The notes below the pieces were generated by a model that saw only the letters and a program-made list of their open reading frames with translations, was not told the origin of the DNA and did not search any database. DNA of 64,000 nucleotides from Pseudomonadales bacterium (GTDB taxonomy: Bacteria > Pseudomonadota > Gammaproteobacteria > Pseudomonadales > Azotimanducaceae). The translations under genes and the position numbers were made by a program. Position 1 is the stretch's first letter. Each line of letters opens with the position of its first letter. The stretch spans positions 2,232,001-2,296,000 of the forward strand of contig WLWP01000001.1 of NCBI GenBank assembly GCA_012103505.1, read 5' to 3'. Shown one piece after another: positions 25,348 to 39,856 of this stretch.

Positions 25348-25512
25348 GGTTGAGTCGCCACGCACTGTTACTCAGACTCCTTCGATCGCCAGATCAGAAC
25401 TCATTTCAACGCCCTTCACTTTGAGCTTTTTTGTTGCATCGAATCCACTTCGAATTGACACTACGAGTTCGGCGACCGTGCGCTACAAGAGGTGCGACAA
25501 CGCGATCATTCC

Positions 25513-26157
25513 ATGGCGAATTATGCTGCCCTTAAACTAGAGAGAGAAAGATTCGGAGTATTCCGACTCATCTATCGTATTGCCATGGATCGGCTGAGTG
25601 GATTTGTCCAACTTTATCAAATTCATTCTCGAAATCTTGCGTCCGGTGCGGTTCCTGAACCCACGCCAGCTAGGGTTGGTTGGGCAACTCACCAGGAACT
25701 AATGCAAGCATCCGGTGAGATACCGTCCGATCTTTCACCTGAATTCGTCCGCACTTCTCTCGCACGAGGTGACAGATGTCTTGCCGCCTTTATCGACAAC
25801 AAGTTAGTGTCTTTTGGGTGGCGTGCTTACACCGATACACCTCATGTCGATGGGGTTTGGATCAGCTTCCGCCCAGGGTATCGCTATGGCTACAAATCAT
25901 TTACCCGTCCTGAGTACCGGGGGCGCCACATCTTGGATCCTAAGTATTCAGATAAATCGGATGTTGATCGAGGGATTAGATATTCAGTGGGTTTCGTCGC
26001 CTCCCACAACTTCCCTTCAAAGTTCAGAGAAAAAAGAATTGGGAGCAATATCATCCATGGACATGCTGGCTACTTTACCCTTTGCGGAAAATTTATTTTC
26101 TTCCACTCTCCTGGCGTTAAGCGAATTGGGTTTGAGTTTTACCTCCCGTCATCCTGA
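25513..26157 (+). CDS. GNAT-like acetyltransferase, tandem paralogue 1
   Basis: 214 residues. First of three tandem paralogues sharing R-F-G, a Y-R-I-x-M-D-R block near residue 20, L-A-R-G-D-R-C-L-A-A-F and S-F-G-W-R-A-Y strands, then Y-K-S-F-T-R-P-E-Y-R-G-R, which fits a GNAT acetyl-CoA loop. The N-acyltransferase fold is likely; the acceptor is unknown. ATG at 25513 was chosen because M-A-N-Y-A-A-L aligns with M-P-D-F-x-A-L of the others. Confidence 0.72.
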   Translation: MANYAALKLERERFGVFRLIYRIAMDRLSGFVQLYQIHSRNLASGAVPEPTPARVGWATHQELMQASGEIPSDLSPEFVRTSLARGDRCLAAFIDNKLVSFGWRAYTDTPHVDGVWISFRPGYRYGYKSFTRPEYRGRHILDPKYSDKSDVDRGIRYSVGFVASHNFPSKFREKRIGSNIIHGHAGYFTLCGKFIFFHSPGVKRIGFEFYLPSS

Positions 26158-26166
26158 TTATTCGTC

Positions 26167-26820
26167 ATGCCAGACTTTCACGCTTTAGGAGAAGAGATCG
26201 ACCGCTTCGGCTGGCTACGTACGGTATACCGCATCGGCATGGACCGTTGTGATTCTTTTCTACAACTTTACGAAATCAACTCGCGCCCATTCGACATTAA
26301 TGCAATACCAACAGCTTCTCCTGCCGACGAAATCCGTTTTGCCACAGAAGACGAGCTACAACGAACGAGCCATGAACTTCCAGATCAGCTACCTAACAAC
26401 TTTCTCCGTGGTGCGTTGGTGCGTGGTGATAAGTGTCTTGCTGCATTCGTCGATGGCAAAATCGTCTCGTTTACCTGGAGAGCTTATGGGGATGCACCCC
26501 ACATCAACAATGTCTGGATCCGGGTAAAAGCCCCATACCGCTACTCCTACAAAGCATATACGCGGCCCGAATATCGTGGGCAACGTATCATGGACGTTAC
26601 CCGATCTGATGCTTACTGCATCAAAAGGGGCAGAACACGAAATATCGGATTCATTGCAACACACAACTTTCCATCACTGCGAAGTAGTTGGCGCAAAGCT
26701 AACCGCGTGCGGCTTGGCTATGCTGGATATTTCACTTTTTTCGGTCGCCATGTTTTTTTTCGAACACCCGGCGTCAAACTAGCAGGATTTGAGTTTGTTG
26801 AATCCCGAAAGGATTCATAG
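26167..26820 (+). CDS. GNAT-like acetyltransferase, tandem paralogue 2
   Basis: 217 residues, starting 9 bp after paralogue 1. It conserves Y-R-I-G-M-D-R, L-V-R-G-D-K-C-L-A-A-F, S-F-T-W-R-A-Y and Y-T-R-P-E-Y-R-G-Q. Divergence from its neighbours is spread along the protein, so the duplication is not recent. Likely co-transcribed with both neighbours. Confidence 0.72.
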   Translation: MPDFHALGEEIDRFGWLRTVYRIGMDRCDSFLQLYEINSRPFDINAIPTASPADEIRFATEDELQRTSHELPDQLPNNFLRGALVRGDKCLAAFVDGKIVSFTWRAYGDAPHINNVWIRVKAPYRYSYKAYTRPEYRGQRIMDVTRSDAYCIKRGRTRNIGFIATHNFPSLRSSWRKANRVRLGYAGYFTFFGRHVFFRTPGVKLAGFEFVESRKDS

Positions 26821-26823
26821 CCA

Positions 26824-27465
26824 ATGCCCGACTTCACAGCCCTGAAACAAGAAGCGCAACGTTTCGGTTGGATTAAAACAGCCTATCGAATAGTGATGGA
26901 TCGACTCGGATCAGTCATGCAGCTATATCAAATTAGCTCACGACTTCTTGACCCTGAAGCGCCACCGCAACCAACGCCTGCAGATCTGCGAATCGCGACT
27001 TACAAAGAGCTACTGGCAGCTGCTGAACAAATGCCTAATCAACTCACTGTAGAGTTCATCGATTCTGCGCTCGCGCGAGGTGACATTTGTTGGGGTGCCT
27101 TCCTAGACGGAAAGATGGTTTCTTTTGGCTGGCGTGCGTACCAATCAACTCCACACACTGAAGACATCTGGGTTCGAGTTCAACCGCCCTTTCGCTACGG
27201 ATACAAATCCTACACCCGTCCGGAGTATCGCGGAATGAGAGTGCGCGACAGCACGAGATCGGACTCCCACTGTGCATCCTTGGGTCGCACCCGCGGGATT
27301 GGCTTCATTGCCACACACAATTTTGCATCTCTGAATCGAAGCAAGCGTCAAACCACTCGTATTTTCCATGGCTATGCCGGTTATCTGATCGTATTCGGCA
27401 AGCCAAGGTTCTTTCGAAGCCTCGGTGTTCGGAAGATTGGCTTCGAATTCTATCTCAACAACTAA
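26824..27465 (+). CDS. GNAT-like acetyltransferase, tandem paralogue 3
   Basis: 213 residues, 3 bp after paralogue 2. It keeps the same blocks: Y-R-I-V-M-D-R, A-R-G-D-I-C-W-G-A-F, S-F-G-W-R-A-Y, Y-T-R-P-E-Y-R-G-M and a C-terminal G-V-R-K-I-G-F-E-F-Y-L. All three end in an almost identical F-F-[HR]-x-x-G-V-[KR] segment. Function unassigned. Confidence 0.72.
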   Translation: MPDFTALKQEAQRFGWIKTAYRIVMDRLGSVMQLYQISSRLLDPEAPPQPTPADLRIATYKELLAAAEQMPNQLTVEFIDSALARGDICWGAFLDGKMVSFGWRAYQSTPHTEDIWVRVQPPFRYGYKSYTRPEYRGMRVRDSTRSDSHCASLGRTRGIGFIATHNFASLNRSKRQTTRIFHGYAGYLIVFGKPRFFRSLGVRKIGFEFYLNN

Positions 27466-28007: not shown

Positions 28008-29006
28008 CTATAGATGGACGAAGTCTCCCCGCTTGAGACGATCGCCATTGAGAAGCGTTGCCCGGGCATACCGCTCAGTTACTTCAACAACTTTGATCTG
28101 CCCTACTTCACGTTCGATGGTGTCGAGCAACATGCCTGTCGAAGGATCAACAAGCCGACGTACGACCGTTGAGACTTTCATGAGATCGCCCGCGCGAATA
28201 CCGGAAGCAAGATTGGCATTTAAATAAACCTCGTCTGCATCTGTGCTGGCGATCTGGAAGCGTCGCTCGACGCCTGAATGCAGGTCTTTAGCAATCTTGA
28301 GCACTGCTTGTCCGAGTGCATTGCGCGAAGCAATTCCCATTGGTGACTTCGAGAATGTGTCGCCACCTAAGCTTGCTCGTTCGTAGTCGAGGCCAATCGT
28401 CCAGCCACCAGTCTTGGAGTCTGCCGTTACGCGATGAGAAAATTTCGTCTGTCCGTTCACCGCATCGATGATGCTGATGTCTAAACCGACGTGCGCTTTG
28501 CTACCATTTCGTCCCACACGCAAGCCGAGAGGTGTCTTAGGCAGGGCCATACCTAGCGTGATGCCACCACCCTTTTTGTTGGGCTCGAATTCCGTGATGG
28601 TGCCTTTGATAATAACTTCAGCACCGACTAATCGACCTGCGGTAGGCGCGGACTCGCGATTGACGACACCGGCGAGACCAAGCTCTTGCTCACGCAGTGT
28701 ATTGGAAAGGCCTGTGCGATCGAGCACAACGAAACAGCCAGTGCGTGTGAGTTCGGTCGCCAGCTGAGCCGCAAGTCCGTCACCTACGTTGTAGCCTTCA
28801 AACGCAGCCATCTTGCCCGTGGCATAGAAGCCGTAGATAGCTACTCGAGGCTTAAGAGTGGGGCACTCCATCGCATCGAGCTGTGTCTGAATTTCCTCGG
28901 CAGAAGGGGTTTTGACTCGCTTCTTTTTCGCGTCTGCAAAGCTTGCGAAGCAGGCTAGAGATAGACCGATTGAAGCGAGGAGAATTAGTCTTAGTGATTT
29001 GCTCAT
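28008..29006 (-). CDS. CsgG-like outer-membrane secretion pore protein
   Basis: 332 residues. A signal peptide (L-I-L-L-A-S-I-G-L-S-L-A-C-F-A) is followed by R-V-A-I-Y-G-F near residue 58, G-D-G-L-A-A-Q-L-A-T-E-L, F-V-V-L-D-R-T-G-L, then V-G-A-E-V-I-I-K-G-T-I-T-E-F, the order seen in CsgG/HfaB proteins that form nonameric pores for curli-type export. It is longer than CsgG (about 277) through a C-terminal extension. A clear lipobox is not seen (S-L-A-C), so lipidation is uncertain. An ECF-type promoter motif lies upstream (29039-29071), shared with the repeat-protein genes. Confidence 0.8.
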   Translation of the reverse strand: MSKSLRLILLASIGLSLACFASFADAKKKRVKTPSAEEIQTQLDAMECPTLKPRVAIYGFYATGKMAAFEGYNVGDGLAAQLATELTRTGCFVVLDRTGLSNTLREQELGLAGVVNRESAPTAGRLVGAEVIIKGTITEFEPNKKGGGITLGMALPKTPLGLRVGRNGSKAHVGLDISIIDAVNGQTKFSHRVTADSKTGGWTIGLDYERASLGGDTFSKSPMGIASRNALGQAVLKIAKDLHSGVERRFQIASTDADEVYLNANLASGIRAGDLMKVSTVVRRLVDPSTGMLLDTIEREVGQIKVVEVTERYARATLLNGDRLKRGDFVHL

Positions 29007-29038: not shown

Positions 29039-29071
29039 TATGGGTCACGAGTAGCGAGTAATCGGTTCAAA
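29039..29071 (-). promoter_or_regulatory. ECF-type promoter motif before the CsgG-like gene
   Basis: Minus strand: TTTGAACC, 15 bp, GTGACCCATA. The same arrangement with the same spacing precedes the ECF sigma gene and both repeat-protein genes. It ends about 32 bp before the ATG. Confidence 0.65.
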
Positions 29072-29087
29072 CTTTTTTGCGAGGAAC

Positions 29088-29111
29088 GAAAAAAGGCGCC
29101 GAAGCGCCTTT
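29088..29111 (-). terminator. Intrinsic terminator after the 116-residue secreted protein gene
   Basis: Stem AAAGGCGC/GCGCCTTT with CGAA loop, followed on the minus strand by TTTTTTTCG. It lies between that gene and the CsgG-like gene. Confidence 0.85.
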
Positions 29112-29139
29112 GCTATTTCCTACTAACTTGACCAGGTCG

Positions 29140-29490
29140 CTATTCAGGCTGACCTTTGGACGCTGCTCTTTCGGGTCCTGCCTGGACCTCTTCGTCGACC
29201 GGGTCCTTGAGCTCACTTGTTTTATCGATGAGTCGTTCGAGGTTTTGCAGCTGCATCTGTTCAAGGTAGACAGAGTTGCCAGCAGTCATTGGGAACACGT
29301 AATAGAGCTTGCCGTTCTGGAGCGGCAGTGCCCGTAACTCGCGCTCGGCCATCAGTCGTTGTACTGATGGGTGAAACCGATATTCGGCAGCGACGACAAA
29401 GCCTTGAATACCAGCGTGTGGCGCAGCGTATGCCTGAGGTAGAACAATCGCTGCGACCACGATGCTCCAAAATAGTAGGAAACGTTTCAT
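29140..29490 (-). CDS. Small secreted protein, possible accessory of the CsgG-like system
   Basis: 116 residues, not recognised. A clear signal peptide (L-F-W-S-I-V-V-A-A-I-V-L-P-Q-A-Y-A) precedes a mature region with Y-Y-V-F-P-M-T and a coiled-coil-like Q-L-Q-N-L-E-R-L, then a polar tail. It overlaps the preceding gene by 4 bp, so the pair is translated together. By size and position it could play a CsgE/CsgF-like role, but no sequence match to them is visible. Confidence 0.65.
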   Translation of the reverse strand: MKRFLLFWSIVVAAIVLPQAYAAPHAGIQGFVVAAEYRFHPSVQRLMAERELRALPLQNGKLYYVFPMTAGNSVYLEQMQLQNLERLIDKTSELKDPVDEEVQAGPERAASKGQPE

Positions 29491-29921
29491 CGTCGTCCTC
29501 CTGGAATCGTGACGAGATCTCGGCCAGCAGACGTGTTGCTGCCGCTGATGTCACCGGAGTTATCACCACAGATCACAACCGTGTTGCCACCGTTACTATC
29601 CACGTCCACATCGAGGCAGCGAAACTGCTGTTCGAAGCGCGTGAGCTGCTGGCGTGTGTCTTGTCGGTACGCTGACACAGAGGGGGAATCTATTGATCGC
29701 GGATTCTGCTGGGTTACCAGACGAACATTGTTTCTCGCTTCGTTTTCGTTCCGCGCACGTTCCTGTTCGATCTGCATACGCAAGTTGTAGATGCGCTGTA
29801 ACTTAAGTTGTTTCACTTCGGCAGGGCTGAGTTGCTTCGTTTCCGCTGTCGCATCAAGGCTGATGAACAGAAGTGACGCTGCGAGAAGTGCTGGGATAGT
29901 CATTAATTGTCGTAGTTTCAT
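29487..29921 (-). CDS. Small secreted protein with an A-G-R-D-L C-terminal motif
   Basis: 144 residues, not recognised. Signal peptide M-T-I-P-A-L-L-A-A-S-L-L-F-I-S, then a charged helical stretch (L-K-L-Q-R-I-Y-N-L-R-M-Q-I-E-Q-E), a Cys pair (C-L-D-V-D-V, V-I-C-G-D) and a G/S/N-rich end with S-N-T-S-A-G-R-D-L. The last motif also occurs near the C-terminus of both E-D-N-D repeat proteins (T-F-A-G-R-D), suggesting a common partner or assembly. Coupled by 4 bp to the next gene. Confidence 0.65.
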   Translation of the reverse strand: MKLRQLMTIPALLAASLLFISLDATAETKQLSPAEVKQLKLQRIYNLRMQIEQERARNENEARNNVRLVTQQNPRSIDSPSVSAYRQDTRQQLTRFEQQFRCLDVDVDSNGGNTVVICGDNSGDISGSNTSAGRDLVTIPGGRR

Positions 29922-29959
29922 GATCGTGTCCTTTTGCGCTAGAGAGTTTTCCGGTTGGT

Positions 29960-29983
29960 GAAAAAGGGGGCCGCAGCCCCCTT
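29960..29983 (-). terminator. Intrinsic terminator after repeat protein 1
   Basis: Stem AAGGGGGC/GCCCCCTT with CGCA loop, followed on the minus strand by TTTCACC. It starts 16 bp after the stop of the E-D-N-D protein gene. Confidence 0.8.
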
Positions 29984-29998
29984 CTGATCACCTCGTCC

Positions 29999-30802
29999 TT
30001 ACTTGCTTACTGATCCGTTCATCACATCAGCGATGCTGTTGCTTGAGTCGCCAGACTGGCCAACTTGTGCCGCTGAGGTCTGATCGACGTCGCCCCATAC
30101 AGTCGCAGAGGTGTTACCAACTGGGCCAAAGACGCCCTTGGGTCCCAAATCTCGACCGGCGAAAGTAGAACCTTGGCTAATCGGACCTGCGCTGCCGCCT
30201 TGCAACATGAGGTTGTTCTGAGGCAACTGGTTGGTGTTGTTGTTGACCATCGAAGGACCGTAGACACGCTGGCTGTCATTGCCTGCGCTGACAACCGTAG
30301 GACCGCCTACAGTGCTAACGGCATGACCGCGAGCTGCGCCAAGTACTGTTGTGTCAGCTTCGTGGCCGGCATCTTGGTCTTGGAACTTGTAAGACGTGAG
30401 CGTTGGTGTGGCGATTTGGAAATCAACCGCTACATCTGTGTCATTGTCTTCTGTGTGCGTGTAATCGTTGTCCTCTGTGACATCATTATCTTCTGTGTGC
30501 TTGTAGACACTGAGATAGTCGTTGTCTTCAGATGTGCGATAGTCGCTTGAGTAGTCGTTGTCTTCTGATGTCACGACAGATGTGGTGACGTCATTGTCTT
30601 CGCTATGCGTTTTGGCAAGCGAGAGCGCAATGTCGTTATCTTCTGTGCGCGTGTATTCAGAACTTCGGTTAAAAGATTCGGATACCTTGATTTGATCGTC
30701 GTCGGAAGCCTGCGATTGCCAGTGTCCATAAGGGTTGGCTTGAGCGGTACCTGCGAAGACCAAGCTGGTTAGAATCAAAGTGGGTGCAAATGTTAATTTC
30801 AT
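29999..30802 (-). CDS. Secreted E-D-N-D repeat protein 1
   Basis: 267 residues, not recognised as a known family. A signal peptide ends A-Q-A, with mature N-P-Y-G-H-W-Q-S. Residues 53-122 hold seven [ST]-E-D-N-D-[IVYT] units spaced mostly 12 apart, alternating with T/S/Y-rich residues. The C-terminal half is Q/N/G-rich (N-N-N-T-N-Q-L-P-Q-N-N, T-F-A-G-R-D-L-G-P-K-G-V-F). This acidic repeat plus Q/N-rich layout suggests a Ca-binding or amyloid-like surface fibre subunit; that is inference. A paralogue lies at 31768-32571. Confidence 0.78.
   Translation of the reverse strand: MKLTFAPTLILTSLVFAGTAQANPYGHWQSQASDDDQIKVSESFNRSSEYTRTEDNDIALSLAKTHSEDNDVTTSVVTSEDNDYSSDYRTSEDNDYLSVYKHTEDNDVTEDNDYTHTEDNDTDVAVDFQIATPTLTSYKFQDQDAGHEADTTVLGAARGHAVSTVGGPTVVSAGNDSQRVYGPSMVNNNTNQLPQNNLMLQGGSAGPISQGSTFAGRDLGPKGVFGPVGNTSATVWGDVDQTSAAQVGQSGDSSNSIADVMNGSVSK
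30437..30646 (-). repeat. Repeat array coding for E-D-N-D units (protein 1)
   Basis: Seven copies of a GAAGACAACGAC-like unit spaced 36-42 bp at first and 18-24 bp at the end, encoding residues 53-122. Synonymous changes differ between units, so the array is under protein-level constraint. Confidence 0.8.
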
Positions 30803-30875
30803 GTCGAACTCCGCTACTTAGGTTTTTGAATTTCGGGGCTTAGTCCCTTTAGGAAGAGTCTTGGCCGCCTTACAA

Positions 30876-30908
30876 GATGAGTAACGGGGGGTAAGAAAAA
30901 GGTTCAAA
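30876..30908 (-). promoter_or_regulatory. ECF-type promoter motif before repeat protein 1
   Basis: Minus strand: TTTGAACC, 15 bp, GTTACTCATC. It ends 73 bp before the ATG. Only two bases separate its second box from that of the ECF operon (GTGACTCATC) and of the other repeat gene. Confidence 0.68.
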
Positions 30909-30944
30909 GAAAATTAACAGCTACAGAGAGAAGGCAAGAGGTAG

Positions 30945-30971
30945 GAAAAATGGCGGGGTAAGAACCCCGCC
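30945..30971 (-). terminator. Intrinsic terminator after the outer-membrane barrel gene
   Basis: Stem GGCGGGGT/ACCCCGCC with AAGA loop and a minus-strand T run (ATTTTTCC). It overlaps the region just after the barrel gene's stop. Confidence 0.8.
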
Positions 30972-30983
30972 GCCTAGACGTGT

Positions 30984-31577
30984 TTAGAACTGGAAGCGTA
31001 CCCCCGCGTTCCAGGTAGTCACATCATCACCAAGATTCACGCCCGCACCGAGCGCGAAATTTTCGGTCAGGTAGTAGCGCGCACCAAGGTTAAACGAAGT
31101 GTCATCGCCGCTGTCATCTAGATCGACATAGCTCACACCACCTTCAAGCTCGAAGGACTCGCTTAGCTTGCCGCGCAAACCAATACCTACCGAATAGCCG
31201 TCGTCGTCTGCATCACCGAAAGGCGTATCGAGCTTGGCATCGACATAACCCAACCGGCCGACGATATCGACATTGTCTGCGATGGGTGCATGGGCACCAA
31301 AACCAACTGTCCATTGGTCAAGATCTACGCCGCCGTCAAACTCAAGCGTGCCATAGCCTGCATGCAAGAATGTGGATTCTCCAATAGCGACTGAACCTGC
31401 GACCGCGATGCCATCACCATCGATATCCAAGCCGTCATCAATCTCTGAATCGACGTAGACTGCATCGATGTAGTTGTAGCTTAAGCCCTCGTCGGCCATC
31501 GCCACCGTACTCATCGCGCTCACAGCTAGGCCAACGGCCAACGGCAAGGCGAGTCTTTTTCTATCAAGTATCTTCAT
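30984..31577 (-). CDS. Small outer-membrane beta-barrel protein
   Basis: 197 residues from ATG at 31577; an upstream in-frame start would give an unlikely N-terminus. A signal peptide ends V-A-M-A. The mature part alternates polar and hydrophobic residues in about eight strands and ends with the terminal aromatic signature R-F-Q-F, as in OmpX/OmpW-like barrels. Surface loops are rich in Asp (D-G-D-G, D-A-D-D-D-G), which may bind cations. It lies between two paralogous repeat-protein genes, so a role in the same surface system is plausible. Confidence 0.78.
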   Translation of the reverse strand: MKILDRKRLALPLAVGLAVSAMSTVAMADEGLSYNYIDAVYVDSEIDDGLDIDGDGIAVAGSVAIGESTFLHAGYGTLEFDGGVDLDQWTVGFGAHAPIADNVDIVGRLGYVDAKLDTPFGDADDDGYSVGIGLRGKLSESFELEGGVSYVDLDDSGDDTSFNLGARYYLTENFALGAGVNLGDDVTTWNAGVRFQF

Positions 31578-31721
31578 AACTTCTCCAAAAGTAGATTTTG
31601 ATATTGCCAGTCTGCTTTTTCTTTTCGTTTGTAGATCGAGCAATGAGGCGAGTATGGGGAGATGAACCTGAATCAATTCTTAACACGGTCGATAGATCTG
31701 GGTTATTCACGCCCGTAAACG

Positions 31722-31746
31722 AAAAAACCCCGCCGGAGCGGGGTTT
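31722..31746 (-). terminator. Intrinsic terminator after repeat protein 2
   Basis: Perfect 9-bp stem AAACCCCGC/GCGGGGTTT with a CGGA loop and TTTTTTC on the minus strand. Confidence 0.9.
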
Positions 31747-31767
31747 GAGAGAGGAAAGTAAGGAAGC

Positions 31768-32571
31768 TTACTTGCTAACCGCGCCAGACATGCTGTCCGC
31801 GATGCTGTTGGCTGAGCCACCAGACTGTCCGACTCGTGCGCCAGAAGACTGGCCAACGTTGCCGTATACCGCTGCAGACGTGTTGCCTACTGGAGCAAAT
31901 ACACCCTTTGGACCCATGTCGCGACCAGCGAAGGTGTTCGCTTGGCTAATCGGTGCCATGTTGCTGCCTTGAACAAATACGTTGTTTTGTGGCAATTGGT
32001 TGGTGTTGTTGTTGATCATCGCAGGACCGTAGAAGGTCTGCTCGTCGTTACCTGCGCTGACGACAGTTGGTCCACCGCGCACACCAACTTCGTGACCGCG
32101 TGCAGATCCGAGAACAGTCGTGTCAGCTTCGTGACCCGCGTCTTGGCTCTGGTACTTGGTAGAAGTAAGCGTAGGTGTTGCAATTTGGAAGTCCAAGTCG
32201 ATTGCAGTGTCGTTGTCTTCTGTATGCGTGTAGTCGTTGTCTTCAGAAACGTCGCTATCTTCTGAATGCGTGTAGTAGCTCGCAACGTCATTGTCTTCAG
32301 ATGAGCGGTACCGTGTAGACACATCGTTGTCTTCGCTCGAGCGGTAGCTCGAGGTGACATCATTATCTTCAGAATGGCGCTTCGTCACATCTACCGCAAT
32401 GTCGTTGTCTTCGCTGTAAGAGCTAGACGCGGTGCGGTTGAAAGAGTCAGCGATTTTGATGGTGTCATCATCAGAGACACTTGATTGCCAGTGGCCATAG
32501 GGGTTTGCCTGTGCGGTTCCAGCGAGAACTAGACCAGCCAGGATGAGGGAAGGTGCAAATACTTTTTTCAT
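31768..32571 (-). CDS. Secreted E-D-N-D repeat protein 2
   Basis: 267 residues, the same length as protein 1 and collinear with it. The signal peptide ends A-Q-A and mature N-P-Y-G-H-W-Q-S is identical. Seven units (six [ST]-E-D-N-D, one S-E-D-S-D) occupy residues 53-122 with identical spacing. The C-terminal half shares Q-D-A-G-H-E-A-D-T-T-V-L-G, G-G-P-T-V-V-S-A-G-N-D and G-P-K-G-V-F. Differences are scattered through the protein. Probably a second subunit of the same surface structure, compare CsgA and CsgB. Function is inferred only. Confidence 0.78.
   Translation of the reverse strand: MKKVFAPSLILAGLVLAGTAQANPYGHWQSSVSDDDTIKIADSFNRTASSSYSEDNDIAVDVTKRHSEDNDVTSSYRSSEDNDVSTRYRSSEDNDVASYYTHSEDSDVSEDNDYTHTEDNDTAIDLDFQIATPTLTSTKYQSQDAGHEADTTVLGSARGHEVGVRGGPTVVSAGNDEQTFYGPAMINNNTNQLPQNNVFVQGSNMAPISQANTFAGRDMGPKGVFAPVGNTSAAVYGNVGQSSGARVGQSGGSANSIADSMSGAVSK
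32206..32415 (-). repeat. Repeat array coding for E-D-N-D units (protein 2)
   Basis: Seven GAAGACAACGAC-like units in the same spacing pattern as 30437-30646, coding residues 53-122. Confidence 0.8.
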
Positions 32572-32623
32572 TTCGATCTCCGTAAAGGGTTGTTTAATTT
32601 CGGCTATTGCTTACTGCCTTACT

Positions 32624-32657
32624 GATTAAGTAACGGTGGTCGCGATATGGGTTCAAA
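32624..32657 (-). promoter_or_regulatory. ECF-type promoter motif before repeat protein 2
   Basis: Minus strand: TTTGAACC, 15 bp, GTTACTTAATC. It lies about 53 bp before the ATG, in an otherwise empty 200-bp gap shared with the divergent dinB. Confidence 0.65.
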
Positions 32658-32773
32658 AGAAATTCAAAAGTATTTTTCGAGCCATCGCGGGAGACTTGTG
32701 AAGGTTCGAATTCAGTTTATTCAAGTACACTAACTACTGGTTAAAAACACAGTAATCCGCTATCCTGAACCGC

Positions 32774-34021
32774 ATGGACGCTTGGCCTCGAATCGTGTTA
32801 CACGCGGATATGGATGCGTTCTACGCCGCGGTAGAGCAGCGTGAAAACCCTGATCTCCGCGGCAAGCCTGTACTGATCGGTCCCAATAGCCATCGCGGCG
32901 TTGTCCTCACAGCAAGTTACGAAGCAAGACCCTATGGGGTTGGTAGTGCCATGCCGGTGGCAGAAGCACGCCGACGCTGTCCGCAAGCGGTTATGGTACC
33001 GCCCAACTTCGAGCTCTATCAGTCCATATCGCAGCAGGTCATGGACATCTTTGCCGATTTTTCCCCCTATGTAGAAGCGATCTCACTAGACGAGGCTTTT
33101 ATCGACATGACAGGGGCCACGCACTTTTTTGGCGCGCCAGCAGAGATGGGACGAAAAATCAAAGAAGCCGTTTACGATGCGACGGACCTGCACATTTCGG
33201 TCGGCGTCTCTAGCACCAAATATGTCGCCAAGGTTGCAAGCGCCCATGACAAACCTAATGGACTAACTGTCGTGCCACCGAGTCATGCCAAGGATTGGCT
33301 CGCACCCCAACCCATTCGCCGTCTTTGGGGCGTGGGTAAAAAGACAGGTCCCAAACTCGAAGCCCTAGGGCTTTACACAATCGGCGATATCGCAGACGCA
33401 GAACCCGAGTACCTATCACACCATCTCGGCCAAAGTGGCGCTCACTTTTACAACTTAGCCCATGCACGTGACCCTCGTCGAGTGACACGCGGACGAACGG
33501 CTAAAAGCATCGGCAGTGACCGCACTTTAAGCAAGGACGTGAGTCACAAGGACGATATCGTTCGCCACCTACACCGATCCGCCGAGCGCATAGCGAGGCG
33601 AGTGCGCGCAAAAGGTTATGTCGCGAACGGTCTACGCGTGCGTCTGAAGACAACTGAGTTCGAAATGCTGACAAGGCAGCGCAAGTTTTCTAAGCCCGCG
33701 GATACCGCAACTGAATTCTTAAAACTTGCCACTACTCTACTGGATGAATTTGATCATCCTGGCCCATTTCGTTTAGTCGGCATGACTGCCTTTGACCTCG
33801 ATTGGCAAGATGAAGCCAACCAGCTCGATCTTTTTGAGACAGGACGAGATCGCGATCTCGAACTTACCCTCGATGAAGTGACGAAGAAGTTTGGCTCAGA
33901 CACCGTTGTGCGAGCCCGCGATATGACGGGGCACGGAACCGTGTCAAAGAATGGCGTGAACTTAGATTATCTCGACTTTGTCGATGGTGAACGTGTTAGC
34001 TCTCCGGGCGGTGCAGACTAG
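32774..34021 (+). CDS. dinB: DNA polymerase IV (Y-family)
   Basis: 415 residues. V-L-H-A-D-M-D-A-F-Y-A-A-V-E-Q at the start and S-L-D-E-A-F-I-D-M-T near residue 105 hold the catalytic acidic residues; Y-E-A-R-P-Y-G-V and S-V-G-V-S-S-T-K-Y-V-A-K are Pol IV hallmarks. It is an error-prone translesion polymerase. It is somewhat longer than E. coli DinB (351), with a C-terminal extension that lacks a clear beta-clamp motif apart from N-Q-L-D-L-F, which fits one. Convergent with the subtilase operon, overlapping its last gene by 4 bp. Confidence 0.94.
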   Translation: MDAWPRIVLHADMDAFYAAVEQRENPDLRGKPVLIGPNSHRGVVLTASYEARPYGVGSAMPVAEARRRCPQAVMVPPNFELYQSISQQVMDIFADFSPYVEAISLDEAFIDMTGATHFFGAPAEMGRKIKEAVYDATDLHISVGVSSTKYVAKVASAHDKPNGLTVVPPSHAKDWLAPQPIRRLWGVGKKTGPKLEALGLYTIGDIADAEPEYLSHHLGQSGAHFYNLAHARDPRRVTRGRTAKSIGSDRTLSKDVSHKDDIVRHLHRSAERIARRVRAKGYVANGLRVRLKTTEFEMLTRQRKFSKPADTATEFLKLATTLLDEFDHPGPFRLVGMTAFDLDWQDEANQLDLFETGRDRDLELTLDEVTKKFGSDTVVRARDMTGHGTVSKNGVNLDYLDFVDGERVSSPGGAD

Positions 34022-35031
34022 TTGACGTACTCGAAACTAAAGCGACCGTCTTCTTCTGGCACAAATCTCAACGGGAACCCAACCGTCTTGTAGCGTCCTT
34101 TGTCCACATGCGTGATATGGACAACCGCTAACGTATGTTCAGATATGACTGATGGGTCTAGGCGAAACATGCCACCCGCGGAACGAACACCATCGGTAGG
34201 TTTCGCGTGACCGAGCTGTTGCCAGGCCGGCAGATCAATTTCTCGTCTCAACTGAGTGAGGTAGGCCTGGTCTGCATCAAGAACCATCTTGACCGCTTCG
34301 CCAGGTAATTGATCCCAGAGTGAGAAACCTCGATTAAAATCAAAGTTACCTGACTTCGACCATGACGAATGGTCACTCGTCCGATTTACCAATTGTCCAT
34401 CGCGGTAGGTACTCGTCGTTTTGGTGACAGACACATTCAAGCTCCAACTGCCCCACAACCCATACTGCTGGTATCGCTCTGGCCAGTATCGTGTGCAATC
34501 TGGTTGCTCCAAAAACATAGTATGGAAGGTGCCCTTACCCGCCGCCTTCTCTACGCGCGCACTGAGAAGCAATCCGTCATCAAATGACTGTCCACCGATC
34601 CGAATACGCGCGTCACCGCCTGGGTGCTCCACCTTGGTTTTGAACTTCTTCTTGATCGGGTCTTTGTCGAGCTTGGGTTTCTTCTTACTGCTGCTCCCAC
34701 CACCACCGCCCAATAGACCGCCCACGAGCTTACCAATCGCAGCATTCGCAGCCTTGCCAAGCATTTTGCCCATGAAGCTTTCCGCATTCCCTAGGTCCAG
34801 CGGCGCTGCTGCAAGTGGCGAGCCGCAACGTTCGGTGGCCGACATCCCAACCTGCCGCTCGATTCGGTCCAGGTTGAGCGCGACAATGGGATATTCGTCT
34901 GGCTCTGAATATTGGAAATCGCCCTTATCAACCGCAGCCCACGCAGGAAGTGCGGTGAGGGATGCTGAATCATTGGCAAACACGGGATTCAATATGGCAA
35001 AAAACACGAGAAAGACGGCGAATCGAATCAT
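34018..35031 (-). CDS. Secreted protein of unknown function, last gene of the ECF-subtilase operon
   Basis: 337 residues, not recognised. Signal peptide F-A-V-F-L-V-F-F-A-I-L-N-P-V-F-A, then a region that includes a glycine run followed by a lysine-rich stretch (about residues 104-135, G-G-L-L-G-G-G-G-G and K-K-K-P-K-L-D-K). The rest looks globular, with W-G-S-W-S-L-N-V-S-V and an alternating-strand C-terminus. It overlaps the subtilase gene by 4 bp and is probably co-expressed; it could be a substrate or partner of that protease. Confidence 0.7.
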   Translation of the reverse strand: MIRFAVFLVFFAILNPVFANDSASLTALPAWAAVDKGDFQYSEPDEYPIVALNLDRIERQVGMSATERCGSPLAAAPLDLGNAESFMGKMLGKAANAAIGKLVGGLLGGGGGSSSKKKPKLDKDPIKKKFKTKVEHPGGDARIRIGGQSFDDGLLLSARVEKAAGKGTFHTMFLEQPDCTRYWPERYQQYGLWGSWSLNVSVTKTTSTYRDGQLVNRTSDHSSWSKSGNFDFNRGFSLWDQLPGEAVKMVLDADQAYLTQLRREIDLPAWQQLGHAKPTDGVRSAGGMFRLDPSVISEHTLAVVHITHVDKGRYKTVGFPLRFVPEEDGRFSFEYVN

Positions 35032-36884
35032 TGCGTTTCTCCAAACAGTTCTGTCTCTGGTTCTTCTTGTTCACATTGAACGGCTGACGCCGTTCCCGCT
35101 TCGACCGCCTTGCAGGCATTGACCGCACCGCTGCCAAATTTTGTATCGGTCCCAACTTCGCCTAGGTCGTCTGCTTGGCTTGTGAGTATCGACGCCACCT
35201 CCTGACCACCAGCAAAGGGAATCAAGTCACGCATTAAGGCCGCAACACCGGAGACGTGGGCAGCTGCCCAACTGGTACCAGATGTCCAGGGATAACTTTT
35301 GCCATCTGGTGCTGTCGTTACGATGTCCACGCCCGGCGCAGCAAGATCGACATAATTTCCCTGGTTGGCATCGCGGTAAAGTTTGCCCTGCACATCGATT
35401 GCAGTTACTGCCAACACATCTGGTAAGGCGGCCGGGAAAGCTGGTTTTGCATTAACCCCGCCGTTACCGGCACCTGCTACAACTAATCTATTTTGTCGGG
35501 TCGCAAGGCTCACATAACGTTGCACCATAAGATCTGGGGGACCCGCGATGCTCATATTGATTATTTGCGCATCGTTGTTGATCGCGGCATCCAGGGCTTT
35601 CACGACCGCGCTGGTTCGACACTTAGCCCGCAATCCACCATCTACTGGATGACAAGCTTTTAGCGCGAGTAGCTGCGCAGCTGGTGCAACACCGTAGGCA
35701 CCTTGGGAATTGTCCGCTGCTGCAGCAATAATGGCGGCAACTGCCGTACCGTGTGCGTCGGGCGTAAACCCTTCGTCGGTAAAGTCTTCCGCAGCGACTC
35801 GGCCTTGGAGTTCAGGATGTTCCGTCGCGACACCCGTATCGATGATCGCAATCGTTTGGCTAGCTCCCTGGGTCGTATCATGGAGATAGAGCGCCCCGCT
35901 CTCCTTCGGACCGTATGCCATCGCCGCAAATGGATCAGTGTGCATGCCAGCCGCGGTTGTGTAGATATATTCTTTTTGAGCAGCAATCACCCGGCTATCG
36001 AGCGCGAGCAATCCAAGCACTCTTAAAATATCGTCAGCAGCGAAGAGCACGAGCGTCTCGGAGGACGACTTTAATTCTGCTTGGCTGACGATAGTGAGTT
36101 GGTATTCTGCGCTGACACTCGCGACATCGGCACTCGCCATCGCGGTAAGAACAACTCCAGGCACGTGTGCCGGTTCAACAGACTCCAGAGGAATACGCAC
36201 TTCGCGACACCCCTCGCTCACCACCAAGTCATAGTCCGTTGTATCTGCGGGAAGACGTTCTGCACTAAACGACGCAGTTCCCTGGTAGGTATCTGATACG
36301 TTTAACCTGAACTCGCCGTGTCGCTTCAGCGCGCGTCTACGTTGTTTGCGCTTATCTGCACCTGTCTTTTGTATGAGCTCAAGGTCTAGCGAAATGTCCG
36401 CCGCAAGCGCTTCTTGGCCAGAGCTGGCAAATGGTGCAGCGGCCACAGGAATCTCACACATGCCTGCACCCGTATCAGGGTCCTCTTCGTCAGGCGGTGT
36501 TTCTGGTCGTTTCTTGACGATTCGTGCTTTCACCGATCCTTCGCCGTTTAAGCCGTCCACCGTGCTATCAACCTGGATGAGCTGACAGACCGCGCTCTCA
36601 CAAGAAATTACACCTGGAGCGCCACAAATCTGTGCACCTTCGTTCCATTGTTGGTCTGTCATCTGAAATTGCACGAGGCTATTTCTACGACCGGCTTTAG
36701 ATACTCGGTAATTGGTCACCGCACTAGTTTCGATCCAAGTCGCAATGGTGACGCTTTCGTGCAATACAACCGATCGAGTCGGCGCAGGCATGGATATTGT
36801 GACGGGCTCTTGCCACGACTGTGCGAGCTCCTGTGCATAGACGGGGACCGAAAGAACTGTAATTGCGATCAGGAGGAGTTTCAT
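35028..36884 (-). CDS. Secreted subtilisin-family (S8) serine protease with long N-terminal region
   Basis: 618 residues. A signal peptide ends V-Y-A. The first about 330 residues are unassigned (Cys-containing, with a K/R-rich stretch near 180). The S8 catalytic domain follows: Asp in A-I-I-D-T-G-V, His in D-A-H-G-T-A-V-A, oxyanion Asn in A-G-A-G-N-G-G and Ser in S-G-T-S-W-A-A-A, so it should be active. It overlaps the next subtilase gene by 4 bp on the minus strand. Located in the ECF sigma operon, so likely induced by envelope or surface signals. Confidence 0.88.
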   Translation of the reverse strand: MKLLLIAITVLSVPVYAQELAQSWQEPVTISMPAPTRSVVLHESVTIATWIETSAVTNYRVSKAGRRNSLVQFQMTDQQWNEGAQICGAPGVISCESAVCQLIQVDSTVDGLNGEGSVKARIVKKRPETPPDEEDPDTGAGMCEIPVAAAPFASSGQEALAADISLDLELIQKTGADKRKQRRRALKRHGEFRLNVSDTYQGTASFSAERLPADTTDYDLVVSEGCREVRIPLESVEPAHVPGVVLTAMASADVASVSAEYQLTIVSQAELKSSSETLVLFAADDILRVLGLLALDSRVIAAQKEYIYTTAAGMHTDPFAAMAYGPKESGALYLHDTTQGASQTIAIIDTGVATEHPELQGRVAAEDFTDEGFTPDAHGTAVAAIIAAAADNSQGAYGVAPAAQLLALKACHPVDGGLRAKCRTSAVVKALDAAINNDAQIINMSIAGPPDLMVQRYVSLATRQNRLVVAGAGNGGVNAKPAFPAALPDVLAVTAIDVQGKLYRDANQGNYVDLAAPGVDIVTTAPDGKSYPWTSGTSWAAAHVSGVAALMRDLIPFAGGQEVASILTSQADDLGEVGTDTKFGSGAVNACKAVEAGTASAVQCEQEEPETELFGETQ

Positions 36885-38464
36885 TGTTGAGTCTCCTCAG
36901 GCGTAGACGCCAAATCAGGCACAGGTAGCGATAAGGTCATCAACGCGGTCTCACTCCCGCCTCCGGCGGCGACTTCCAGTTTCACTTCCCAGTCGGTAGA
37001 GCCGTAAAACCGAGTCACTAAATCATCGAACGAAATGGTCGCAAGGAGATCTGATCGCACTGGTTGTGCCACTTGTACAAGTTCCTGCCACTGGTAGGCG
37101 GCTGTGAGCATCTCGGCGTCTAGCGCAATCTGTTTTTTCGACTTCTTGGCGCGTCTCTTTTTCGGTTTTTTCCCCTGTGCAACTAACTCAGCATCGGTCG
37201 CACGCTCAATCATCTCTATAGTCACCGTACTTGCGACGGGACGAGCAAGCACCACACCTTTCTCAAAGCCTTGACCTTCGGCCACCCCGATAAGTTCGAC
37301 AAAGAGGGAATCGTTTTTTAGCGATAAATCTGCTTCTTCTAGCCGTGCAATAACTTGTTGACCCGGTTGGTGGCCCAAACCACGCACGAAATCTATGCTG
37401 CCGTATCCGGAAAGTTGGTCTATGCCAGCTGGTTCAATATCGGCAGCCGATTGCAAAAGAACACTTTTCAGCCCCTTCCCACCGAGTTCTGGTCGCAGAC
37501 TCTTGATGCGCGAAGCAACACCTGTCGCGATGGCCGCCGAAAAAGAAGTGCCGTTCGCACGATAGTAGTGCTCGCCCACGACGGCCTTCTCTGGCTCATA
37601 GTCAAGCGGTTCAGACATTTCAACAAAGTCTGTGTCTTCAGCCCGTAACGATAGGATATCCACTCCGGGGGCAAGCAGGTGCACAAGGTTGCCAAAATTT
37701 GAAAAGCCAGCCCGAACACCCTCTGTGGTGCTTGCACCTACAGCGAGTACACCAGGGAGACCGGCGTAACCAAACCTCTCGGCTGGAATACCGCGATTGC
37801 CCGAACTAACAATGATGAGCACGTCGTTCTCTTCGGCGTAAGTTGCTGCAGCTTTTTCGAGTTCTGTTATCAGCTCGCCGCCTAAGCTCAAGTTGATAAT
37901 TTGTGCGCCATTATCGACGGCATAGTAGATCGCGGCTGCGACATTAGAACTGCGTGCTTGGCCTGCAAAGTTAGCGACTTTCAAAGACATAATCTTCGCG
38001 TCAGGATTCACCGCCGCTATACCCACACCATTGTCCGTACAAGCCGCAATCACGCCCGCGATATGGGTGCCGTGCCCACTTTGATCCCAGGGATTGTTGT
38101 TGTCTTCCACAAAATTCCACCCGAGGAGATCATCAACGTAGCCATTCTTGTCGTCATCACGGCCATTGCGTTCTTCCCGTGGGTTCCACCACAGCTGTTC
38201 GGAGGCAAGATCCTCATGGGTGTAGTCGATGCCTGTATCGATGACCGCGACAATCACGGGTTCACCGCGCTGCTGCGGCGCCACATCGGCATAGACTCGT
38301 TGCTCTTCCACAGCCCACTGATCTGGGTACGGCTGCGACCAAGTCTCATCGCTATTCATATAGGGGTCGTCAGGCGCCGCAAAAGCCACGCTGAAACTGA
38401 ATAGCAGGCACCCGGTTAGCCAACAGATGCTGTGGTATCCGTTTTGTTGTCGCATCAATGACAT
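36881..38464 (-). CDS. Secreted subtilisin-family (S8) serine protease
   Basis: 527 residues. A signal peptide (L-L-F-S-F-S-V-A-F-A-A-P) leads directly into the catalytic domain, with Asp in A-V-I-D-T-G-I-D-Y, His in S-G-H-G-T-H-I-A-G, Asn in S-S-G-N-R-G and Ser in N-G-T-S-F-S-A-A. No I9-type prodomain is visible before the catalytic domain, which is unusual for an S8 protease. The C-terminal about 150 residues include a K/R-rich stretch (K-K-P-K-K-R-R-A-K-K). The anti-sigma gene lies 10 bp upstream. Confidence 0.9.
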   Translation of the reverse strand: MSLMRQQNGYHSICWLTGCLLFSFSVAFAAPDDPYMNSDETWSQPYPDQWAVEEQRVYADVAPQQRGEPVIVAVIDTGIDYTHEDLASEQLWWNPREERNGRDDDKNGYVDDLLGWNFVEDNNNPWDQSGHGTHIAGVIAACTDNGVGIAAVNPDAKIMSLKVANFAGQARSSNVAAAIYYAVDNGAQIINLSLGGELITELEKAAATYAEENDVLIIVSSGNRGIPAERFGYAGLPGVLAVGASTTEGVRAGFSNFGNLVHLLAPGVDILSLRAEDTDFVEMSEPLDYEPEKAVVGEHYYRANGTSFSAAIATGVASRIKSLRPELGGKGLKSVLLQSAADIEPAGIDQLSGYGSIDFVRGLGHQPGQQVIARLEEADLSLKNDSLFVELIGVAEGQGFEKGVVLARPVASTVTIEMIERATDAELVAQGKKPKKRRAKKSKKQIALDAEMLTAAYQWQELVQVAQPVRSDLLATISFDDLVTRFYGSTDWEVKLEVAAGGGSETALMTLSLPVPDLASTPEETQQ

Positions 38465-38474
38465 CCTGATCTCT

Positions 38475-39155
38475 CTAATATTTTGGTGCGGGTTGCACCA
38501 TCTGTGTTGCGGGGCTTGCCCGTAACAGATCGCTCACCAAGGTCATGTCAGTTTCTTCTGGCAAATCAATCTGATAAATCCCAAGGCTAGAAGGTCCAGC
38601 AACAATCGATCCATCGACAGATACTAAGAGCGTCCTTATGTCAGCTTCCGTGACACCCGGGGTGAATAAAATTTGCACATCAGCGTGCCCAGTCCCGCTG
38701 CTGCCAGAAACCGTGACAATATCATCGTCTTGGTCAGTCGCTGAATCTGTTGTCAGAAGTGCAGAACCAAGCGCGATGACCAGAACGAATTGTCCGGCGA
38801 TCGCAACCTTCGCAAGCGGTGGCATCGTCAGCCATTCGAGTCGAGCCAGAAGACCTGCAAAAAATCCTTCCTTCGTTTCTCTATTTACTTCTTGGACAAT
38901 GACCGGACGGGCGACCGCCTCTTCTTGCGTGACTGTATCTAGTTTGGCCATAACGCCATCAAGGATGGCTGGATTGAACACGGGTTCATCGTTGGTTTGT
39001 TCTGGGATGGTCTCAGCAAAAAGTCGAATTTCTTCGATCTCTTGTTGGCTGATCTCACCGCTGTCAATGAACGCCTGCACCGCTCTTGTTTCGTCGGAGG
39101 ACAAAGTCCCATTGACGAACCACGGCAATAATTCTTCTGCTTCCTGTCTAGTCAT
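38475..39155 (-). CDS. Membrane anti-sigma factor with propeptide-like periplasmic domain
   Basis: 226 residues. The cytoplasmic N-terminus (E-A-E-E-L-L-P-W-F-V-N-G-T-L-S) is the usual zf-HC2 anti-sigma opening but lacks the H-x3-C-x2-C zinc ligands. One membrane helix lies at about 114-134. The outer domain (157-222) reads V-Q-I-L-F-T-P-G-V-T-E-A-D-I-R-T-L-L and later G-P-S-S-L-G-I-Y, like subtilisin inhibitor/prodomain (I9-like) folds. It overlaps the sigma gene by 4 bp. I infer that the outer domain senses or inhibits the subtilases encoded downstream. Confidence 0.8.
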   Translation of the reverse strand: MTRQEAEELLPWFVNGTLSSDETRAVQAFIDSGEISQQEIEEIRLFAETIPEQTNDEPVFNPAILDGVMAKLDTVTQEEAVARPVIVQEVNRETKEGFFAGLLARLEWLTMPPLAKVAIAGQFVLVIALGSALLTTDSATDQDDDIVTVSGSSGTGHADVQILFTPGVTEADIRTLLVSVDGSIVAGPSSLGIYQIDLPEETDMTLVSDLLRASPATQMVQPAPKY

Positions 39156-39751
39156 GATGCTAACTCCACGACAGAGGGATCCAAGCCTGCTTCAACCATA
39201 AAGCCCATGAGTTGTTTCTTTGCGTGGTGCATTCTTGTCTTCACGGTATTAGTAGGACACTGCACGATCTCGGCAATCTCCGGGTAAGAACAACCATGGA
39301 AAAACGTCAACTCCACTACATCTCGATGTTCCGGCGACAACTTGGCAATGGCAGTTTTCAGCCCTTGTTTCAGTGTCTCCCGATCTCTCGATCCTGGTGG
39401 TGTCACTGATTCTTCAGCCGGTGCCTCCGGTGCGTCATCAATGTCTACAGTAACAAACTCTTTTCTTCGCACCGCGTTCAACGCGACATGTCGCGTGATA
39501 CCTAGTATCCAAGTACTGACTCGCGAACGGCCTTCGAATTTCGGTGCATGCTTCCAGATTTCTAGCATGACGTCGTTGGTAACCTCTTCTGCTTTCTCAT
39601 GGTCAGAAATCAGACGATAGGCATAACGGAATACACGTTCACCATACTTGGCAAAGAGTTGCTCAAAGGCTTTCTTGTCGCCTTCGCCGACAAGGGCGAC
39701 GAGGTCAAAGTCCTCGTTGGTCTCTAAATTTTCTTGTGCAACTTCTGACAT
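39152..39751 (-). CDS. ECF RNA polymerase sigma factor
   Basis: 199 residues. Region 2 is F-E-Q-L-F-A-K-Y-G-E-R-V-F-R-Y-A-Y-R-L and W-K-H-A-P-K-F-E-G; region 4 has C-S-Y-P-E-I-A-E-I-V and T-V-K-T-R-M-H-H-A-K-K. No C-terminal extension is present. First gene of a five-gene coupled operon: sigma, anti-sigma, two subtilases, secreted unknown. Its own promoter carries TTTGAACC-N15-GTGACTCATC, also found before the CsgG-like gene and both repeat-protein genes, so it probably autoregulates and controls those genes. Confidence 0.92.
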   Translation of the reverse strand: MSEVAQENLETNEDFDLVALVGEGDKKAFEQLFAKYGERVFRYAYRLISDHEKAEEVTNDVMLEIWKHAPKFEGRSRVSTWILGITRHVALNAVRRKEFVTVDIDDAPEAPAEESVTPPGSRDRETLKQGLKTAIAKLSPEHRDVVELTFFHGCSYPEIAEIVQCPTNTVKTRMHHAKKQLMGFMVEAGLDPSVVELAS

Positions 39752-39823
39752 GATCCCACTTGATCACCGTTCGTCTGATTTCACCCAAACACTTGTGCTC
39801 TTACACAACAAGCGTTCTCAAAG

Positions 39824-39856
39824 GATGAGTCACAGCCAACATCAAAAGGGTTCAAA
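39824..39856 (-). promoter_or_regulatory. ECF-type promoter motif before the sigma operon
   Basis: Minus strand: TTTGAACC, 15 bp, GTGACTCATC, 73 bp before the sigma ATG. The 326-bp gap 39752-40077 holds this, and a plus-oriented look-alike at 39949-39977 (TTTTGAACC, 15 bp, GTGTGG), but no gene. Confidence 0.68.

Follow-up and report, generated by a model that had tools for sequence, protein, structure and literature searches.

A 64,000-nucleotide stretch of a Pseudomonadales genome of the Azotimanducaceae (GCA_012103505.1, contig WLWP01000001.1, positions 2,232,001 to 2,296,000; hereafter the window, with position 1 its first letter) encodes an extracytoplasmic function (ECF) sigma factor in one operon with a membrane anti-sigma factor, two subtilases, S8a and S8b, and a protein of 337 residues, p337. 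Judged from sequence comparison, this operon very probably belongs to one autoregulated ECF regulon that reads the promoter TTGAACC-N15-GTKACYYA. We further propose, with a probability of roughly 0.6, that the subtilases are coupled to the anti-sigma factor, in that docking on or cleavage of its subtilisin-prodomain-like periplasmic domain controls the sigma factor. The operon runs along the minus strand:

39152–39751, minus strand: ECF sigma factor, 199 residues (TIGR02937, 97.8 bits, cut-off 42.9)
38475–39155, minus strand: membrane anti-sigma factor, 226 residues, of three-part architecture
36881–38464, minus strand: subtilase S8a (PF00082, E=1.7e-48), with the catalytic Asp, His, Asn and Ser present
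35028–36884, minus strand: subtilase S8b, with a long N-terminal region (PF00082, E=7.5e-41)
34018–35031, minus strand: p337, last gene of the operon, with an apparent signal sequence (by eye)

The two-box promoter

The motif TTTGAACC-N15-GT[GT]AC[CT][CT]A matches at exactly four places in the window, each of them on the minus strand; 100 dinucleotide shuffles give 0.00 matches on average. The sites stand before the sigma operon, two repeat-protein genes (rep1 and rep2) and a csgG-like gene, and the second box is followed by the start codon after 34 to 75 bp:

39826–39856, minus strand: ECF-type promoter of the sigma operon, exact TTTGAACC-N15-GTGACTCA, 74 bp before the start codon
32627–32657, minus strand: ECF-type promoter of rep2, exact match, 55 bp
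30878–30908, minus strand: ECF-type promoter of rep1, exact match, 75 bp
29041–29071, minus strand: ECF-type promoter of the csgG-like gene, exact match, 34 bp

A first-pass annotation made from the letters of the window had recognized these four sites, with intervals that began 2–3 bases lower, had placed them 30–75 bp before start codons with a fixed 15-bp spacer, and had named excess over randomized sequence as a test; the sites, the spacer and the excess are confirmed here. The genome carrying the window (G000; 5.82 Mb, 99% complete, 6.6% contamination) holds nine exact copies of the full motif and two with one mismatch. With up to two mismatches allowed, the count rises to 31, equal to the 31 of the reversed-pattern control and therefore mostly noise. 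The looser pattern GAACC-N15-GTNAC, which the same annotation had advised for a genome scan, gave 51 matches against 83 in the reversed control, and we rejected it as a scan tool; its lack of enrichment implies that the outer bases of the motif matter.

Across 58 genomes the motif keeps company with the anti-sigma factor. Exact full-motif copies number 9, 7, 3 and 2 in the four genomes that carry it and 0 in the other 54; with at most one mismatch there are 28 matches in the carriers, against 4 in the reversed control, and 13 in the non-carriers, against 31. Without the first T, the pattern TTGAACC-N15-GTKACYYA matches exactly 24 times in the four genomes and 0 times in the control. The repeat protein occurs in the same four genomes, as does the csgG-like orthologue (E<1e-200), and weaker CsgG relatives are found in 7 others of the 58. 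The anti-sigma tally includes a fifth genome, G040, through a partial match (E 3.3e-4). The four carriers are related to one another and do not represent independent events.

A wider comparison came from scanning named genomes with the alignment of the sigma factor. The best 80 loci comprise ten close relatives (L135–L144), 58–71% identical, and 70 others at 34% or less. The ten lie in metagenome-assembled genomes titled Pseudomonadales, Pseudomonadaceae, Gammaproteobacteria or Proteobacteria; L135, L136 and L137 are genomes G006, G008 and G025. Nine of these ten relatives have TTGAACC-N15-GTKACYYA upstream of the sigma gene's conserved part, and the tenth, L138, has this promoter with one mismatch. 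When the spacer was allowed to vary from 13 to 18 over the ten loci (121,662 bases), all 22 copies of TTGAACC-Nn-GTKAC had 15. The motif is found as well before the repeat gene of L136, L137, L142 and L143 and, with one mismatch to the full pattern, before the csgG-like gene in G006; L143 carries a copy at the end of p116, where relatives have the csgG-like gene next. The seven loci of sufficient length all preserve the gene order sigma, anti-sigma, S8a, S8b, p337. p337 itself is 56–73% identical in relatives, and no Pfam family matches it at cut-off.

Other genes accompany the operon in relatives. Seven of the ten named relatives, L138–L144, encode a conserved small protein of about 55 residues in divergent orientation to the sigma operon (for example L142:6399-6563, L143:6547-6708 and L139:6388-6558, all on the minus strand); tblastn did not find it in the window or in L135–L137. 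Its strand bears a promoter copy in L138, L139, L142, L143 and L144. By eye, three relatives from the genus have, beside the operon and divergent from it, a second ECF sigma gene (43–47% identity), a beta-barrel-like protein and a sensor kinase (L073:4031-8339, L075:2006-6231, L077:16486-19995), with a LuxR-type regulator as well in L073 and L075; this set is not at the corresponding place in the window. A DNA-polymerase-IV-like gene (DinB, by eye; 32774–34021, plus strand) separates the sigma operon from the repeat genes in the window. In L075 and L077 p337 adjoins a repeat gene, and there is one repeat gene rather than two.

The anti-sigma factor and the subtilases

The anti-sigma factor consists of a class I anti-sigma domain (ASDI; about residues 1–75), a hydrophobic helix (residues 113–135), which lies between the anti-sigma and C-terminal domains and which we take as a candidate transmembrane segment, and a prodomain-like domain (residues 157–226) that ends at the C-terminus of the protein. 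The profile of its family matches the anti-sigma domain of ChrR (2q1z) at E=2.7e-8 and that of RsiW (5wuq) at 0.022, and 21 of 25 family members match zf-HC2 at E≤0.1, a domain homology that places the protein in class I. The zinc motif H-x3-C-x2-C is absent from the window's anti-sigma factor and present in those of L142 and L143. About 44% of class I anti-sigma factors lack this motif, so it is not defining (PMC7406223).

The predicted periplasmic end of the protein resembles a subtilisin prodomain, as judged from Pfam matches in orthologues and from the predicted fold. PF22148 (Fervidolysin_NPro-like) matches the orthologue in L077 with 24.4 bits (cut-off 21), those in L073 and L075 below cut-off, and 9 of the 25 family members at E≤0.1. 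AlphaFold2 models residues 157–226 as beta-alpha-beta-beta-alpha-beta with a predicted local distance difference test score (pLDDT) of about 90, and subtilisin propeptides stand at the top of the VIA-align list for this predicted domain.

The neighbouring subtilase, in turn, appears from its sequence to have no prodomain of its own. The catalytic residues are invariant in both enzymes (D76, H131 and S307 in S8a; D349, H378 and S538 in S8b), and no prodomain was recognised in S8a. In seven of nine S8a orthologues the mature-like N-terminus, P[ND]DP, is at residue 25–37, which leaves room for little beyond a signal peptide, and in a profile alignment S8a position 34 falls on residue 2 of AprV2 chains. 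The motif of the catalytic Asp falls at residue 66–106 in eight S8a orthologues and at 162 in L142, which has an insertion; in eight S8b orthologues it falls at residue 345–508 (mechanical open reading frame starts). It is this short N-terminus, set against the later Asp motif elsewhere, that makes S8a look prodomain-less. The first-pass annotation was silent on the anti-sigma gene, its prodomain-like domain and the missing S8a prodomain.

A subtilisin prodomain both folds its protease and inhibits it, its C-terminal tail occupying the active site. A prodomain-like domain at the periplasmic C-terminus of an anti-sigma factor, beside a subtilase in which no prodomain is recognisable, suggests the protease as its ligand and possibly as the site-1 protease. 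In the mechanism we propose, the ECF sigma factor would recognize TTGAACC-N15-GTKACYYA and switch on its own operon (sigma factor, anti-sigma factor, two subtilases and p337), together with the two repeat-protein genes, the CsgG-domain gene and several remote genes for envelope or secreted proteins. The membrane anti-sigma factor would hold the sigma factor until S8a, S8b or both dock on its outer domain as on a prodomain, this being the presumed input; docking or cleavage would then start the proteolytic removal of the anti-sigma factor, and sigma activity would report the state of the secreted subtilases. A stricter version, in which the locus is a split zymogen whose S8a gave up its prodomain and whose anti-sigma factor supplies one in trans as foldase and inhibitor, seems doubtful to us. 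If it were true, sigma output would measure the amount of secreted subtilase that is folded or free, and this feedback device would exist, in varied form, across many Pseudomonadota.

The association of sigma factor, anti-sigma factor and subtilase recurs well outside the close relatives. The anti-sigma profile matched 16 of 369 genomes in a class-wide search, the window's own included; at 16 loci from the 15 other genomes, a sigma gene is adjacent in 15 and a subtilase is present in 11. A phylum-wide search matched 42 of 398 genomes. Among its stronger rows, 33 with E≤4.7e-20 and the window's own row set apart, we looked at 20 loci, from 19 of the 42 genomes; the sigma gene is adjacent in all 20 and a subtilase lies within about 2 kb in 19. 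In the available flanks of 70 other ECF loci from the same sigma query there was no subtilase. Order and strand within the module vary: in L304 and L305 the subtilase precedes sigma, and in L309 the anti-sigma gene is on the opposite strand. G008 has a second, paralogous sigma/anti-sigma/subtilase module (L076:5318-7566, minus strand), the anti-sigma factor of which has H-x3-C-x2-C. In 15 distant modules, a simple pattern search and inspection by eye of the sequence upstream of sigma revealed no full copy of the two-box promoter. By eye, L119, L124, L130, L131 and L133 do have TTGAACC or something close to it there, with a different second box (CACTAA in L124 and L130), which may reflect promoter divergence.

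A number of results weigh against this coupling. PF22148 gives no match at E<1 in the window's own anti-sigma factor, and a profile comparison of the anti-sigma and S8b alignments found no shared domain. The ferredoxin-like fold is common; in VIA-align the Z margin of propeptides over unrelated rows is below 1, and Foldseek, which gave no match at E≤0.001, listed unrelated proteins first and propeptides at ranks 5–9 with E about 0.01. S8a in L142 and L143 has P[ND]DP at residue 65–66, with about 40 extra N-terminal residues. No subtilase was seen at 5 of the 16 class-level loci (in one, L126, the contig ends about 800 bp past the anti-sigma gene; in three related ones carbamoyl-phosphate synthase genes come next, by eye) or at 1 of the 20 phylum-level loci, and a few genera supply most of the 70 control loci. 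Partner subtilases in the wider modules (n=31) tend to have a long N-terminus: in all 15 of them in which the simple Asp motif was found, it is at residue 154 or later (mechanical start codons), so that in those modules the anti-sigma domain may be something other than a missing prodomain. Finally, computation supports motif, co-occurrence, conservation, domain architecture, the short S8a N-terminus and recurrence of the module; recognition of the motif by this sigma factor, an interaction of subtilase with anti-sigma factor and the direction of its effect are inferences.

In one rival reading the regulon is as described, but the periplasmic domain is simply a ferredoxin-like sensor, whether for another protein or for a small ligand; the subtilases would then be outputs only, and the first cut would fall to a different protease. 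The fold is common, and ferredoxin-like proteins other than propeptides come close to them in score or, in Foldseek, surpass them; it is normal for outputs to be encoded beside their own regulator; and in L124, L130 and L131, which form one family, the anti-sigma factor has no subtilase in the next genes. Against a plain sensor stand the sequence-level match to a prodomain family, the strong linkage to subtilases (at 19 of 20 and at 11 of 16 loci, with 0 among 70 controls) and the position of the domain, which ends at the protein C-terminus as a prodomain tail would, and we regard it as a serious but unlikely alternative. Least credible is that the motif is the operator of another conserved regulator or is read by a different ECF sigma factor: candidates exist, with 6–15 places per genome matching this sigma factor at E≤1e-8 in four genomes (itself included) and a second ECF gene (43–47% identity) beside the operon in G006, G008 and G025, but two boxes 15 bp apart resemble an ECF promoter, the closest paralogue in the window's genome is 32% identical among the matches listed, yet nine exact sites are present there, and the exact sites track the anti-sigma factor across the 58 genomes.

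Coupling of a subtilase to the anti-sigma factor would have relatives among known systems. RseA/sigma-E combines an ECF sigma factor, a membrane anti-sigma factor and an envelope output, as proposed here; RseA is not known to carry a prodomain-like domain. The POIA1 propeptide-like inhibitor resembles subtilisin propeptides, and the domain described here is like both in predicted fold, size and C-terminal position; it differs in following an anti-sigma domain and a transmembrane helix within one fused protein. DegS, the protease of the RseA/sigma-E system, is of the HtrA type and has a PDZ domain (PMC8103513); it is not a subtilase. RsiV, the anti-sigma factor of Bacillus subtilis sigma-V, binds lysozyme and thereby becomes a substrate of signal peptidase, as an excerpt of PMC4183432 describes. 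On that description, the likeness lies in a membrane anti-sigma factor that is itself the sensor, enzyme binding exposing site-1 cleavage; the difference is that the outer domain here is subtilisin-prodomain-like and the putative partner enzyme is encoded in the same operon. ECF54 is associated with subtilase, carboxypeptidase and CHAT proteins according to part of PMC8999054, which likewise places ECF sigma genes beside subtilase genes, as in this locus.

Literature searches, covering the titles and starts of abstracts that were listed and some passages, returned no description of a prodomain-bearing anti-sigma factor, and none of a case combining subtilase, ECF and anti-sigma factor or CsgG. 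An anti-sigma factor with a subtilisin-prodomain-like domain may thus be new, though this is not certain. The inputs of many ECF anti-sigma factors are unknown. The recurring module offers a concrete candidate, a co-encoded protease meeting a prodomain-like fold, for a widely distributed group of anti-sigma factors, and it also yields a ready-made reporter promoter and regulon.

Output of the regulon

Beyond the operon, the window holds a cluster of genes, three of them preceded by the motif:

31768–32571, minus strand: repeat protein 2 (rep2), 267 residues, seven EDND-type motifs followed by a conserved C-terminal core
30984–31577, minus strand: outer-membrane beta-barrel protein between the repeat genes (PF13505, E=9.9e-9)
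29999–30802, minus strand: repeat protein 1 (rep1), 267 residues, 70% identical to rep2
29487–29921, minus strand: p144, small protein whose N-terminus looks by eye like a signal sequence; in relatives its gene lies between the repeat and csgG-like genes
29140–29490, minus strand: p116, small protein with an apparent signal sequence (by eye)
28008–29006, minus strand: CsgG-domain protein with a FlgT_C-like end (PF03783, E=6.8e-29)

The CsgG-domain protein matches FlgT_C at 0.0084, below cut-off, and CsgG in PDB at 4.9e-5. Orthologues of p144 are found in L073, L075, L077, L136, L137, L142 and L143, and of p116 in L073, L075, L077 and L143; neither protein has a Pfam match. The beta-barrel gene, which has no motif of its own, encodes a protein 61% identical in L075 and adjoins the csgG-like gene also in G008. 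A search of named genomes for the repeat protein returned no relative.

TTGAACC-N15-GTKACYYA occurs at 10 sites in G000, six of them outside the window. Four of the remote sites precede open reading frames, which encode a zinc-ribbon-like membrane protein of 212 residues (PF17032, below cut-off), a hydrophobic protein of 67 residues, and proteins of 223 and 143 residues with apparent signal sequences (by eye). Two others fit a regulon less well: one lies inside a thiolase-like open reading frame (by eye), on the opposite strand, and an exact copy of the rep-type promoter at C6:1520076 (L248, G000 C6:1519500-1524000) is followed by no clear open reading frame for several hundred bases. A search behind the latter did not find a repeat-gene remnant; it is possible that this site serves a small RNA or a lost gene. 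For four remote targets, another genome holds a relative that has its own site. Three are shared with G006: the 67-residue protein (67% identity over 61 residues), the 143-residue protein (58% over 38) and an OmpA-family protein of about 330 residues (38% over 307), whose site in G000 has one mismatch. The fourth, a protein of 158 residues, is shared with G008 (30% over 136, E 4.7e-13; G000 site C6:2550674, two mismatches). The predicted theme of the remote targets is envelope and secreted proteins.

The proposal of the first-pass annotation that one regulon unites the sigma-subtilase operon, the repeat genes and the csgG-like gene is well supported by sequence, through the co-occurrence of these genes, the motif at their orthologues and the remote members. 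Its further suggestion of a pore and a surface structure stays conjectural: the CsgG match is at the level of a domain, searches for curlin in rep1 and rep2, and for CsgE and CsgF in p116, p144 or the G006 orthologues, gave no family match, and the AlphaFold model of the repeat protein is unusable (pLDDT 32), which precludes any claim about its fold. That a surface fibre is built can reasonably be guessed but not concluded.

A more specific version, compatible with the other readings, is a curli-like fibre in which the repeat proteins are exported through the CsgG-like protein, p144 and p116 stand in for CsgE and CsgF, and the subtilases are maturation enzymes. The gene order repeat-p144-p116-csgG-like is conserved and a common promoter joins the repeat and csgG-like genes. 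Part of one survey counts only 171 of 601 PF03783 matches as curli CsgG (PMC3521004). By that partial account of csgBA/csgDEFG, the locus shares with curli a CsgG-domain protein, two small proteins with apparent signal sequences and candidate repetitive subunits; it departs from curli in the missing family matches and in its apparent control by an ECF sigma factor. L142 lacks the EDND repeats and L143 has a single one, with the C-terminal core kept in both, and a lipobox cysteine was not seen by eye in L075 and L077 and is ambiguous in the window. We therefore hold a curli-like fibre to be unproven and, on present odds, rather unlikely.

Elsewhere in the window, at 25492–27465 on the plus strand, lie three tandem genes for proteins of 213–221 residues; judged by eye they are mutual paralogues, and they are unconnected with the regulon.

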